IMG/VR virus record: IMGVR_UViG_3300047548_001236 | Location: 124,001-188,000 of that record | DNA length: 64,000 nt | Source of the DNA: a virus | Direction: 5' to 3' (one strand) | In this document: piece after piece, positions 55,968-59,012 of the stretch | Layout: every line of letters starts with the position of its first letter | Position numbering within the stretch: the stretch's first letter is position 1 | Translations under genes and position numbers: made by a program | Notes under the pieces: model-generated | What the model was told of the DNA's origin: nothing | What the model saw: the letters and a program-made list of their open reading frames with translations, nothing else | Databases searched by the model: none

Positions 55968-56354
55968 TTATTTGATTTGAATCCGGTCAAACAATCGTCG
56001 AAAGACGTCGTGACATGTATGCCTATACTCATGCAGACTCATAGGTTTAGCAGGACCTAGATTTAGCCTGGTTTTATTGTAGCGTTCCCACGCTTCGCTC
56101 GTTTCATAAACGTAGTCTGCGTGCTGGAAGCGATTCAGGTTTTCTTGAGCTACGACATCCCAATCCACATCTTCTATTGGTATGTTGTTGTACTGACCAT
56201 CTGCGTATTGTTTGGGTTTAGTGCGCAACTGCTCAAAATTTGAGACGCCTCGAAGCCTCTCAATCATTCTTATTGCAGCCTCAGCTTCGGCTTCTGATGC
56301 ACCGTTTTGGACGGTCTTCAATGATAAAGCCCGGATTTTCTGCTCTATGCTCAT
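55968..56354 (-). CDS. Hypothetical protein with DUF2786-like N-terminus
   Basis: 128 residues. The N-terminus IEQKIRALSLKTVQNGASEA, then EAEAAIRMIERLRGV resembles the DUF2786 helix pair. The rest (EDVDWDVVAQENLNRFQHAD, ETSEAWERYNKTRLNL, YRHTCHDVFRRLFD) is helical with a His/Cys-containing end that I cannot place. It is separated by 12 bases from the YqeY-like gene, same unit. No function assigned. Confidence 0.6.
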   Translation of the reverse strand: MSIEQKIRALSLKTVQNGASEAEAEAAIRMIERLRGVSNFEQLRTKPKQYADGQYNNIPIEDVDWDVVAQENLNRFQHADYVYETSEAWERYNKTRLNLGPAKPMSLHEYRHTCHDVFRRLFDRIQIK

Positions 56355-56360
56355 AATACC

Positions 56361-56582
56361 TCACATTGTGTGAGCAGCACCGCGTTGTGCTAACTCGCGC
56401 CAAACCTCATGACCGACGACCATCATAGCCAACGCATTGTCATCCATATACTTAGATGCGATTAGTCGAAGTTGGTCGACTGGACCCACAGTACCTGTTT
56501 TCTCGAACAGCTCCATTTCATCAAAAATGTCCCAGAGCTCTTTGTTGGATAGGTTTCCGATGTGTTTTCTCACTTTGCTCAT
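56361..56582 (-). CDS. Small helical hypothetical protein
   Basis: 73 residues, MSKVRKHIGNLSNKELWDIF ... HEVWRELAQRGAAHTM. Overlaps the upstream membrane protein stop by 4 bases (ATGA coupling). Helical, with no recognised family. Likely real because of the coupling and tight packing. Confidence 0.6.
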   Translation of the reverse strand: MSKVRKHIGNLSNKELWDIFDEMELFEKTGTVGPVDQLRLIASKYMDDNALAMMVVGHEVWRELAQRGAAHTM

Positions 56583-56773
56583 ACTTCTTCTCCCATATCA
56601 CAACCAGGCTTTCCTTCAATCACAGTGGGAATGCCTCCAAACTTCACGCAGATCTCAGGATCACGTTTGTCGTAGAGTGCGGTATATAGAATGAGAACCA
56701 CGATCCCCATAACCATTACCGCACTCATGGCAGTCCCTAGAATTCGAGTCAGTCTCTCTGCATTGTACATCAT
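56579..56773 (-). CDS. Small single-pass membrane protein
   Basis: 64 residues from the first of two ATGs at 56773. One hydrophobic segment (GTAMSAVMVMGIVVLILYTA, about 13-32) followed by a polar, Cys-containing tail DPEICVKFGGIPTVIEGKPG. Probably anchored in the inner membrane. Its start is 2 bases after the stop of the phosphoesterase remnant. Before the endonuclease insertion it was therefore the gene directly downstream of the phosphoesterase. Confidence 0.62.
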   Translation of the reverse strand: MMYNAERLTRILGTAMSAVMVMGIVVLILYTALYDKRDPEICVKFGGIPTVIEGKPGCDMGEEV

Positions 56774-56775
56774 AT

Positions 56776-56868
56776 TACAACTCCACATCTACAAAATCAA
56801 GCTCTCCGATGCATTGAAAGATGGTCCGACCATACTTGTACTACATCGTATGATGCCAATGCCCAAAG
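56776..56868 (-). pseudogene. Orphan 3' fragment of the phosphoesterase gene
   Basis: Read on the minus strand this gives FGHWHHTM, a TAG stop, YKYGRTIFQCIGELDFVDVEL and a TAA. It matches residues 184-213 of the intact phosphoesterase at 57763-58449 (FGHWHHSMAYQFGRTVFVCLG), with point differences and one in-frame stop. The fragment sits on the other side of the GIY-YIG gene and has no upstream part. It looks like the displaced original 3' end of the gene, left behind when the endonuclease arrived with a replacement end. Confidence 0.82.
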
Positions 56869-56876
56869 TATAAATA
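56869..56876 (+). promoter_or_regulatory. Late promoter TATAAATA for the GIY-YIG gene
   Basis: Exact consensus abutting the phosphoesterase remnant, 32 bases before the TTG start. It gives a late plus-strand gene inside an early minus-strand block, showing that the element brought its own promoter. Confidence 0.7.
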
Positions 56877-56907
56877 CATTATACTAAACGCTCAAGGAGG
56901 GCAACTG

Positions 56908-57762
56908 TTGTTTTATCTATATGTAAAAACTCACAACATCACTGGTCTTAAATATTTGGGGCAAACATCGTCGACCAATCCTCACGCCTATAAGGGTTCG
57001 GGTGTGTTTTGGAGAAGGCATCTCCAAAAGTATGGGTCAGACTTTTCAACTCAAATTTTATTAGCAACAGATGACAAAGACGAATTAAAAGCAACAGGAG
57101 AGTTTTTCAGTAGACTGTGGGGAGTGGTTCGAAATAGACAGTGGGCTAACCTTAAAGAGGAATCAGGCGACGGTGGTTGGGATCACATTAACAACTTCCC
57201 AGATCTTTACAGAGAACAGCGCAAGAAAAATATGTCTGCTGTCGGTTCGCAAAACAAAGACACAGTTGCTATTGTTGATCAGTGTGGGTCGAAAAGACGT
57301 GTACCAGTAGATGTGTTCAGAGCAAATGTAGGGGACTTGAAAGGCCACACGACAGGTATGTTTGCAGCATATGATGAAAACGGCAATATGCATTACGTGT
57401 CGTCGTCCGATCCACTATTTTCCTCAGGTGTCTTAAAAAGTAACAATAAGGGAAAGATTTATATAACAGACGGGAATACCTACAAACTTGTCCATCCAAA
57501 CGATGGCATACCAGAGGGTTGGCACCTCGGTGAAAACAGAACACGTCCCAACAATAACAAGGTATGGGTAACTAACGCTCTAGGCGAATCAAAGATGGTG
57601 TTCCGGGATAAGATTGAAGACGGTTGGGTATTAGGCAGAAAGTATACACAAAAACACCCTCGTGCGAAAACAAAGTGGGTTAACGACGGAATACGCAATT
57701 ATCGGATACCCGCAGACCAAAAATTATATAACGGATGGTCTGCGGGTAAAATAAAGGGTTGA
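56908..57762 (+). CDS. GIY-YIG homing endonuclease, Seg-like
   Basis: 284 residues from a TTG at 56908, seven bases after AAGGAGG; no nearby ATG fits. The nuclease core reads FYLYVKTHNITGLKYLGQTS (GIY-YIG variant YLY...YLG), with RRHLQKYG and GEFFSRLWGVV supplying the Arg and Glu. The C-terminal half has three copies of a W-x-x-D/N-G ... GW-x-x-G module: IYITDGNTYKLV ... EGWHLGEN, VWVTNALGESKM ... GWVLGRK and KWVNDGIRNYRI ... GWSAGKI. Such short repeats occur in T4 Seg-type endonucleases as DNA-binding modules. It is inserted tail-to-tail against the phosphoesterase gene. Confidence 0.85.
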   Translation: MFYLYVKTHNITGLKYLGQTSSTNPHAYKGSGVFWRRHLQKYGSDFSTQILLATDDKDELKATGEFFSRLWGVVRNRQWANLKEESGDGGWDHINNFPDLYREQRKKNMSAVGSQNKDTVAIVDQCGSKRRVPVDVFRANVGDLKGHTTGMFAAYDENGNMHYVSSSDPLFSSGVLKSNNKGKIYITDGNTYKLVHPNDGIPEGWHLGENRTRPNNNKVWVTNALGESKMVFRDKIEDGWVLGRKYTQKHPRAKTKWVNDGIRNYRIPADQKLYNGWSAGKIKG

Positions 57763-58449
57763 TCAACCAAACTTACGTGTAATCGCGTCGTGGATCTGTT
57801 CAGAATCGCTTAAATCCACATCGATGTAGTCAAGTTCTCCGAGACACACAAACACAGTACGACCGAACTGATAAGCCATGCTGTGATGCCAATGACCAAA
57901 AAAATGAAAGTCGGGCTGGTGTGCATCAAACATAGCCTGAAACGCTTGACCAGTCCGCGTATTGATCTTCTTGGCGTTTGGACCACCGATTGCCAAACCT
58001 GTCTGCACGAACATTTCATACGTTACGTCTGTGGGACCGTCGTGTGTAATCATGACACGAGGTTGAACGGTAACATAGACGTCGTAAAGACGATTAAGCT
58101 GCTCAATAGACAGCTCTTCATCTCGCCACCAGTCGAACCCCTCACGGCGATAAGCCCAATCGATAGACCACGCACCACCAATGAACATTACGTCGTTTTC
58201 GATCGTACCGTCGTTGATAAACCCAGGCATCTGTTTGCATCGAGCTGGATTGTCGTGATTACCACGGATAAACCGATGCTGTGGATTTACCGTTTGCCAA
58301 TCTGTGACACTCTCGTGCCAGTAGTCGCCAGCAAAGCCAATTCCAAAGTCCCCTACCTGAATCGTGGGACCTTTGAAATCAGCAATACTGTAGGCCTGAT
58401 AATCATAAATCTTGCCGTGAATGTCGCCGATTAGTCTTGTCAGTTTCAT
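57763..58449 (-). CDS. Calcineurin-like metallophosphoesterase
   Basis: 228 residues. Full metal-ligand set of the family: GDIHG (8-12), GDFG (33-36), GNHD (63-66), ITHDGP (134-139) and GHWHH (185-189). It resembles phage and bacterial protein/nucleotide phosphatases of this superfamily; the substrate cannot be read from sequence. The stop codon abuts the stop of the endonuclease with no spacer. A second, degenerate copy of residues 184-213 lies beyond the endonuclease. The ATG overlaps the upstream gene by 4 bases. Confidence 0.88.
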   Translation of the reverse strand: MKLTRLIGDIHGKIYDYQAYSIADFKGPTIQVGDFGIGFAGDYWHESVTDWQTVNPQHRFIRGNHDNPARCKQMPGFINDGTIENDVMFIGGAWSIDWAYRREGFDWWRDEELSIEQLNRLYDVYVTVQPRVMITHDGPTDVTYEMFVQTGLAIGGPNAKKINTRTGQAFQAMFDAHQPDFHFFGHWHHSMAYQFGRTVFVCLGELDYIDVDLSDSEQIHDAITRKFG

Positions 58450-58664
58450 TTGTTTTTACTCAAACTCACGTTGACGACAAGACAGAATTCTGCCTTGTCA
58501 GATAGATTGTAGTAGTACTGGACATGATTGACCCAGCCACCTGCTTTATCTGAGTCGATGAATTCACCGACTCGTGGGATGTGTAGAGGGTCGTCGACAC
58601 AGAATTTGTTATTGGTCATCCCATATTGATCATTCTCGAAAATCCACATGCGTGTACGGGGCAT
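58446..58664 (-). CDS. Small hypothetical protein
   Basis: 72 residues, MPRTRMWIFENDQYGMTNNK ... AEFCLVVNVSLSKNK. Overlaps the phosphoesterase start by 4 bases and abuts the receiver-like gene. Beta-rich pattern with HIPRVGEFIDSDKAGGWVNH, common in small phage proteins of unknown role. No family recognised. Confidence 0.6.
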   Translation of the reverse strand: MPRTRMWIFENDQYGMTNNKFCVDDPLHIPRVGEFIDSDKAGGWVNHVQYYYNLSDKAEFCLVVNVSLSKNK

Positions 58665-59012
58665 TCAATTCCCCGTATGCTTGAGATAGTTGATCAGCAA
58701 GCCCTCAATGTTGCGCTTGCCAATCGGGTTCTTGCTGTGAACGGTGAACTGGAAATTCTCGGGAATCTTCCACTTTCCGTCCATATCACCTTCGACGATC
58801 TTCTGAACGATTTCGTAACCATTCAGAGTGACTTCCTCGGGGCCCAGATCATGATCGAAGCTGATGAACTCAGGCATACCGTAGGTTTCGATCAGGTTCA
58901 TGACCTCGGGCCAGTCACGAGCGACGAACCAATCGTCGCGGACGCCATACCAATCAGCCCACGTGGCATCCGACGGCCAGCGCTCATCATCGATAAACAG
59001 ATTGTACGACAT
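58665..59012 (-). CDS. Receiver-like domain protein (cyclic-phosphate-processing type)
   Basis: 115 residues from the ATG at 59012, with GGGAG upstream; a GTG 18 bases earlier lies before that site. It reads YNLFIDDERWPSDATWADWY, VARDWPEVMNLIETYGMPEF, ISFDHDLGPEEVTLNGYEIV, then FTVHSKNPIGKRNIEGLLIN. The DDER and SFDHDLG motifs match a stand-alone receiver-fold family described as cyclic-phosphate-processing receiver domains. Such proteins are common in phages, possibly acting on RNA ends or cyclic nucleotides. Activity here is inferred. Confidence 0.75.
   Translation of the reverse strand: MSYNLFIDDERWPSDATWADWYGVRDDWFVARDWPEVMNLIETYGMPEFISFDHDLGPEEVTLNGYEIVQKIVEGDMDGKWKIPENFQFTVHSKNPIGKRNIEGLLINYLKHTGN

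Follow-up and report, generated by a model that had tools for sequence, protein, structure and literature searches.

A convergent GIY-YIG homing endonuclease gene and a left-over gene tail at a phage phosphoesterase locus: a probable counterpart of the tail-replacing mobile ORFs of fungal mitochondria

The systems closest to the locus described here are the mobile ORFs (mORFs) of fungal mitochondria and the free-standing homing endonuclease genes (HEGs) of T4-like phages. As described in excerpts of PMC3630166, the mORFs of Glomus atp6, atp9, cox2 and nad3 provide a foreign C-terminus that keeps the host gene whole, with an endonuclease ORF next to it, and the native C-terminus stays downstream, where it is nearer to that of element-free relatives than the inserted one; atp6 of Allomyces macrogynus is cited there as a similar case. 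Transcripts were examined for these systems, and mobility was tested in the Allomyces one. These excerpts bear out the statement, made in an initial sequence-only reading of the DNA analyzed here, that gene-tail replacement is known in fungal mitochondria. In T4, late promoters and co-conversion of free-standing HEGs have been described, and I-TevI represses its own late promoter via a target-like site (excerpts of PMC2988022). The excerpted parts of PMC2988022 and PMC10448857 deal with the insertion of HEGs, with genes that are split and with co-conversion, and mention no replaced gene end; no report of a phage HEG that brings a replacement gene end was found in the open-access literature, subscription papers lying mostly outside this search.

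The stretch analyzed (the window) is 64,000 nt long and corresponds to positions 124,001 to 188,000 of the virus record IMGVR_UViG_3300047548_001236. The features of the locus, which is built around a phosphoesterase (PE) gene, are collected in Table 1. The stop codons of the HEG (57760-57762) and of PE (57763-57765) are directly adjacent, so the two genes do meet base to base, as the sequence-only reading had noticed. Equally correct was its finding of a PE fragment with an internal stop beyond the HEG (the orphan), whose translation is YFGHWHHTM-stop-YKYGRTIFQCIGELDFVDVEL-stop (56775-56870, minus strand). When the PE protein was compared with the entire 282,855-base virus record, two places were detected, the gene itself and the orphan, and the record holds one full-length PE copy. 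The orphan corresponds to PE residues 181-219, with 54% identity and E = 1.2e-13, so that the match is far beyond chance; its assignment to the same protein stands, and its extent is slightly wider than the residues 184-213 first given. The old stop of the orphan (TAA, 56775-56777) lies 1 base, and not 2 as first counted, ahead of the ATG of the next gene, up to whose start the orphan still holds the operon end. The PE product matched Pfam Metallophos (E=7.6e-5, above the cut-off) and phrog_1649 (E=7.3e-34). A group I intron or an intein was considered and rejected: the PE ORF is uninterrupted, and Rfam gave no match in 56300-58700 at E values of up to 1, so that no known intron is present.

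Table 1. Features of the phosphoesterase locus (positions in the window)
Feature	Position	Strand	Remarks
PE, intact calcineurin-like metallophosphoesterase, host gene of the element	57763-58449	-	228 aa
GIY-YIG HEG	56908-57762	+	284 aa, TTG start, convergent to PE
Orphan old PE tail	56775-56870	-	31 codons + stop, one internal TAG (56841-56843)
Next operon gene, start MMYNAERL	56579-56773	-	ATG at 56773
Ribosome-binding-site-like AAGGAGG	56894-56900	+	7 nt 5′ of the HEG TTG start
TATAAATA, T4-type late promoter box	56869-56876	+	Overlaps the first codon of the orphan, between HEG and orphan
Current PE tail, read as imported replacement end	57763-57918	-	Left limit by analogy with L001 and phiM19
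23-nt block common to the window and L001 (both with HEG)	57896-57918	-	Encodes QPDFHFFG
His182 codon CAT, candidate immunity change	57904-57906	-	TGG (Trp) in 102/114 HEG-free relatives

The HEG product was assigned to the GIY-YIG catalytic family by a profile search, in which residues 1-112 matched the homing endonuclease family phrog_314 (E=7.2e-7); searches of Pfam and of PDB sequences gave no match, and NCBIfam no useful one. The N-terminal domain was modelled by AlphaFold with a pLDDT of about 92-98, and the top PDB match of this model was the catalytic domain of I-TevI (probability 0.98, TM 0.67 by target), but with E=0.21. Phage records annotated SegB or SegD were also matched, and the Seg-type GIY-YIG HEGs of T4-like phages belong to this same catalytic family. 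The C-terminal half (57430-57759, plus strand) is made of three repeats of ~37 aa ending in GWxxGK/R/E, which are likely DNA-binding modules. Similar repeats were observed in the HEG of another PE locus, L281, and the HEG of a further one, L090, is 48% identical to that of the window.

PE relatives were taken from phage records (36 records) and viral contigs. The alignment scans gave the best 80 of 355 and the best 80 of 295 relatives, named phages were added, and the 181 merged loci, labelled with L numbers, were reduced by the last 120 residues to 127 distinct PE genes, the window included. HEGs were detected in these loci with profiles built from GIY-YIG relatives and one HNH seed. To find second tails, all 181 loci were scanned outside PE for a degenerate DNA motif encoding GHWH, and the last 70 residues of each representative were compared by tblastn with up to 2.5 kb on each side, the flanks varying in length. 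By profile search a HEG abutted the PE stop in 12 of the 127 distinct loci, nine of them carrying a convergent GIY-YIG gene (the window, L001, L006 or Ochrobactrum phage vB_OspM_OC, L007 or Rhizobium phage RHph_I1_18, L083, L090, L274, L281 and L332) and three a codirectional HNH-type gene (phiM19, which is L008, L296 and L305). Five of the nine convergent loci have orphan tails: those of the window, L083 and L090 were found by motif and tblastn, and only the motif detected those of L001 and L006, this short motif being the sole support of the L006 orphan. When the flanks of L007, L274, L281 and L332 were read by eye, no tail remnant was seen. The orphans are nearly intact in L083 and L090, carry one stop in the window and have shrunk in L001 and L006, and none is visible in the other four loci. 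All five start at one place, 0 to about 6 nt ahead of the Gly codon of GHWH, and this fixed point is the main argument for an insertion at a cut site inside PE. A classical Seg insertion between genes, away from the cut site, does not fit, since the orphans put the insertion point inside PE.

A second PE tail in the same orientation could also be what remains of a second copy, if PE was formerly present as two tandem genes and the HEG inserted between them. However, with the GHWH motif and tblastn no second tail was found in any of the 118 distinct loci that lack a convergent HEG at the PE stop (flanks of varying length), which makes such a history unlikely; tandem PE genes in HEG-free relatives had been named beforehand as the observation that would overturn the insertion. 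Furthermore, the five orphans begin at the same codons, and past its HEG L001 runs straight into the counterpart of the gene next to PE in the HEG-free L034, which has a single PE: PE of L001 aligns with that of L034 through its stop, and on the far side of the HEG in L001 the alignment resumes with the last PE bases of L034 and its next gene. We regard the tandem origin as very improbable. In the alignment PE is a single uninterrupted gene in 114 HEG-free loci, L034 and phiN3 being near ones.

The box TATAAATA, which we take to be the T4 late promoter box, occurs 10 times on the plus strand of the window and once on the minus strand. Among 109 distinct related HEGs, 41 have it within 120 nt upstream, as compared with 3 antisense occurrences and 1.3 expected from shuffles. 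At the PE loci, a [TC]ATAAATA box lies near the GHWH stub in all five orphan-bearing cases and in none of the four convergent-HEG loci without an orphan. When the box and GHWH pattern was searched over all viral contigs, five stretches were obtained and no new case. Two belong to the L083 and L090 contigs already known, another is a distant PE that is intact, and the remaining two are copies of one chance match. A scan of genome contigs found no relative. RNA folding of the HEG leaders was better than shuffles in L006 (z = -5.2) and no better than shuffles in four others. The HEG leader GGTTCGCGGATTTCTTGGCAGGCATCCCAACCATTCTAGAAACA is near-identical in L083 (4725-4810) and L090 (4700-4790), two loci whose PE bodies share about 51% identity; a portion of this leader also lies beside the HEG start in L332, and its folding showed no unusual structure.

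The comparison of old and new tails was done by sliding identity, 31-50 residues being too short for a tree. The orphan of the window matched the tails of HEG-free relatives (28/31 residues in L047, 27/31 in L059, and 26/31 in L035 and L048) better than the current tail of its own gene (20/31, rank 27 of 126), and tblastx against L047 gave 90.6% over 32 residues, as had been predicted for relatives that lack the insertion and have one PE. The L083 orphan likewise gave 26 matches with L105 and L078 and 23 with its own tail. Thus, the left-over tail is nearer to element-free relatives in the window and L083, but not in L090, where the orphan is matched best by the current tail of the same gene (26/31), with almost no difference in the first 16 codons. 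L090 either speaks against tail import at that locus or points to a later conversion, and its second tail may be a local duplication.

The current tails were then compared with the PE bodies that precede them. The body of L001 PE has 80-83% nucleotide identity with those of the HEG-free L042, L036, L034 and L031, and the tail 62-69% (tail minus body -0.18, -0.16, -0.14 and -0.17, respectively). The bodies of phiM19 and phiN3 are 94% and the tails 55% identical at the nucleotide level, a difference of -0.38. The HNH gene is absent from phiN3, and the sequence downstream of this gene in phiM19 is 99.2% identical in phiN3. phiM19 shows a swapped tail and no orphan. Over the same range, 40 HEG-free pairs gave a mean difference of -0.01 (SD 0.07), and phiM19 and three of the L001 comparisons fell below all 40, L001-L034 being equalled by 5%. 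The divergence begins at most about 20 codons before GHWH in L001, and somewhat earlier in phiM19. When the nine convergent-HEG loci were tested together for an excess of tail similarity, the result was not significant (p = 0.17), and only a post hoc subset reached significance (p = 0.0008). Among the HEG-free pairs, L043-L050 and L043-L054 have a tail drop near the weakest one of the HEG-bearing comparisons, and the drops in L043, L050, L054 and L055 (up to -0.15) are perhaps old tail swaps from which the HEG has since been lost.

If repair of the cut had copied the host's own tail and the copies had then diverged, nothing foreign would have been imported, and the mutual best matches of tail and orphan in L090, with their nearly identical start, are what such a duplication would leave. 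Against it as a general explanation, the orphans of the window and L083 fit the tails of other phages better than their own, and the tails of phiM19 and phiN3 differ as they do with the sequence intact, and presumably selected, in both phages; we consider it quite unlikely. The proposal that the element inserted with a new C-terminal end and left the old end as debris gains support from the shared orphan start and from the divergent tails in the two comparisons of loci with and without a HEG.

The codon two positions before the Phe of FGHWH encodes Trp in 102 of 114 HEG-free loci, and in the nine convergent-HEG loci it encodes His in six, Tyr in one and Trp in two. The alteration of this Trp in 7/9 convergent-HEG and 12/114 HEG-free loci gave a Fisher p = 2e-5, a value that overstates independence because the loci are related. 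The Trp codon is altered in all five orphan-bearing loci, and retained in L281, L332 and the three codirectional HNH loci; the nearest HEG-free relatives of L083 likewise have His there. At this site the window and L001 read CAGCCCGACTTTCATTTTTTTGG, 23 identical nucleotides, the rest of their PE bodies being only about 50-74% identical, and both encode QPDFHFFG where the relatives have mostly QPDEWYFG. The altered codon is a candidate immunity change, of the kind that a cleavage-immune tail would predict.

The orphan and the new tail could also be products of ordinary free-standing homing, in which the cut is remote, the tail swap is part of the conversion tract and the orphan is one illegitimate repair per lineage. 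Seg endonucleases of T4 act at a distance and co-convert their flanks (excerpts of PMC2988022), and the swap without an orphan in phiM19 agrees with such a course, but a remote cut does not predict five orphans that begin at one point inside a gene, nor the alteration of the adjoining Trp codon in seven of nine loci. This explanation appears unlikely to us. We therefore prefer, with a probability of roughly 0.8 and judging from sequence comparison, to read the locus in the window as an integrated element that left the old tail behind and has three parts: a new 3′ end for PE, a GIY-YIG HEG convergent to PE, and the late promoter of this HEG. The arrangement is real and recurrent, and is best read as the phage counterpart of the fungal tail-replacing mORFs.

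A mechanism for the integrated element can be proposed. The endonuclease, made late, would cut HEG-free PE alleles of co-infecting phages just before the Gly-His-Trp-His codons. The break would be repaired from the HEG-bearing copy, the left end via PE homology, so that the donor tail and the HEG are copied in; divergent tails behind conserved bodies support this repair. The right end would be joined beside the old tail of the recipient, which is kept as the orphan in the arrangement that is seen. The new tail would keep the enzyme whole, and the changed target, in which the Trp codon is seen to be lost, would block recutting. The orphan would then decay and eventually be lost, as the series across the loci displays. 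The parts would presumably move as a unit. By analogy with I-TevI, one may speculate that the GHWH stub beside the promoter serves as an operator for self-repression of the HEG; such a role of the half-site would explain why in L001 and L006 the stub has outlasted the remainder of the orphan.

Two side observations concern the turnover of HEGs at this gene. The IMG/VR contigs L331 and L332 are 99.7% identical in the PE region, and a deletion removed nearly all of the HEG from L331, the PE of which now ends in leftover HEG antisense sequence, so that HEGs are also lost. In Rhizobium phage TM3_3_6 (L005, 1803-2501) a Seg-like HEG that ends at the PE start takes the place of a small hypothetical gene of RHph_Y65 (L014), which makes the 5′ flank of PE a HEG site as well.

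Like sequence on both sides of a HEG was then searched for in 165 loci obtained by HEG-alignment scans. Two-sided similarity was found in 34 of them, and 11 were read in detail. One, L204 (a 224-kb contig), is a real case. Its PIN-PhoH gene (matching Pfam PhoH with E=1.1e-46) is convergent with a GIY-YIG HEG, and a 99-residue orphan tail is 86% identical to the resident tail of this gene. At the start of the two tails 9/11 codons differ (8/11 residues are the same), versus 32/88 after it (p = 0.007), a pattern that fits how a recoded target would look. With this PhoH as query, only itself and one distant relative were found in the viral contigs. L241 turned out to be a pair of paralogous genes, and the other nine two-sided matches were judged by eye to be tRNA-gene or low-specificity similarity; L109 and L110 are the contigs of L090 and L083, respectively. 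In Campylobacter phage IBB_35 (L350, 2450-4369) an intein-like insert lies in PhoH at the Walker B codons (DE/xQN), and in Campylobacter phage CJLB-12 (L352, 1998-3524) PhoH is broken between two ORFs at the Walker B codons; both break sites are near the start of the L204 orphan. As a tentative and rather doubtful generalization, phages might carry a natural class of home-and-rescue elements, in which a late-promoter HEG cassette would sit at a conserved active-site codon with a cleavage-immune gene end and with the old half-site as promoter operator, the end being made immune in PE by loss of the Trp codon, which has no synonym, and in PhoH by recoding.

If the preferred reading of the PE locus is true, a mechanism of fungal mitochondria extends to phages, and free-standing phage endonucleases can invade the interior of a conserved gene without breaking it. 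Phage gene ends could also be exchanged apart from gene bodies, a point to be considered in building trees and in annotation. Furthermore, phages would offer a tractable test of natural home-and-rescue drives, with a defined target codon and a readable decay series, and phages with and without the HEG are at hand in laboratory hosts, namely the Sinorhizobium phages phiM12, phiM7 and phiM19 versus phiN3.

Among phage systems, the free-standing HEGs of T4 are intergenic and cut at a distance of hundreds of bases or more (excerpts of PMC2988022), whereas the element in the window sits inside a gene, where the cut is presumed to lie, and the end of this gene is a new one. Aeh1 mobE in nrdA and T4 mobA in gene 60 are, as described in the same excerpts, free-standing HEGs in a critical region of a conserved gene, but their insertion divides the gene product into two polypeptides, whereas that of PE stays one because a new end came in. 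The HomeR drives, according to excerpts of PMC7968924, also target a 3′ coding end and carry a re-coded rescue end; they are synthetic CRISPR drives in flies and the element in the window is natural; the likeness is an analogy only. With the fungal mORFs, as excerpted from PMC3630166, the locus shares a complete host gene with an endonuclease ORF directly after it, and a native tail on the far side of the endonuclease. The two differ in that the DNA is phage DNA here and mitochondrial there, that the fungal ORFs are mostly LAGLIDADG (GIY-YIG in atp9) and the HEG of the window is GIY-YIG, and that the case in the window is known from sequence alone. They also differ in orientation: the fungal ORF has the same sense as its host gene, in phase or cotranscribed, whereas the HEG in the window, with its own late promoter, and the HEGs in the eight other loci are convergent. 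Because of this orientation, the element in the window is taken to work like an mORF and is not filed as a member of that class.
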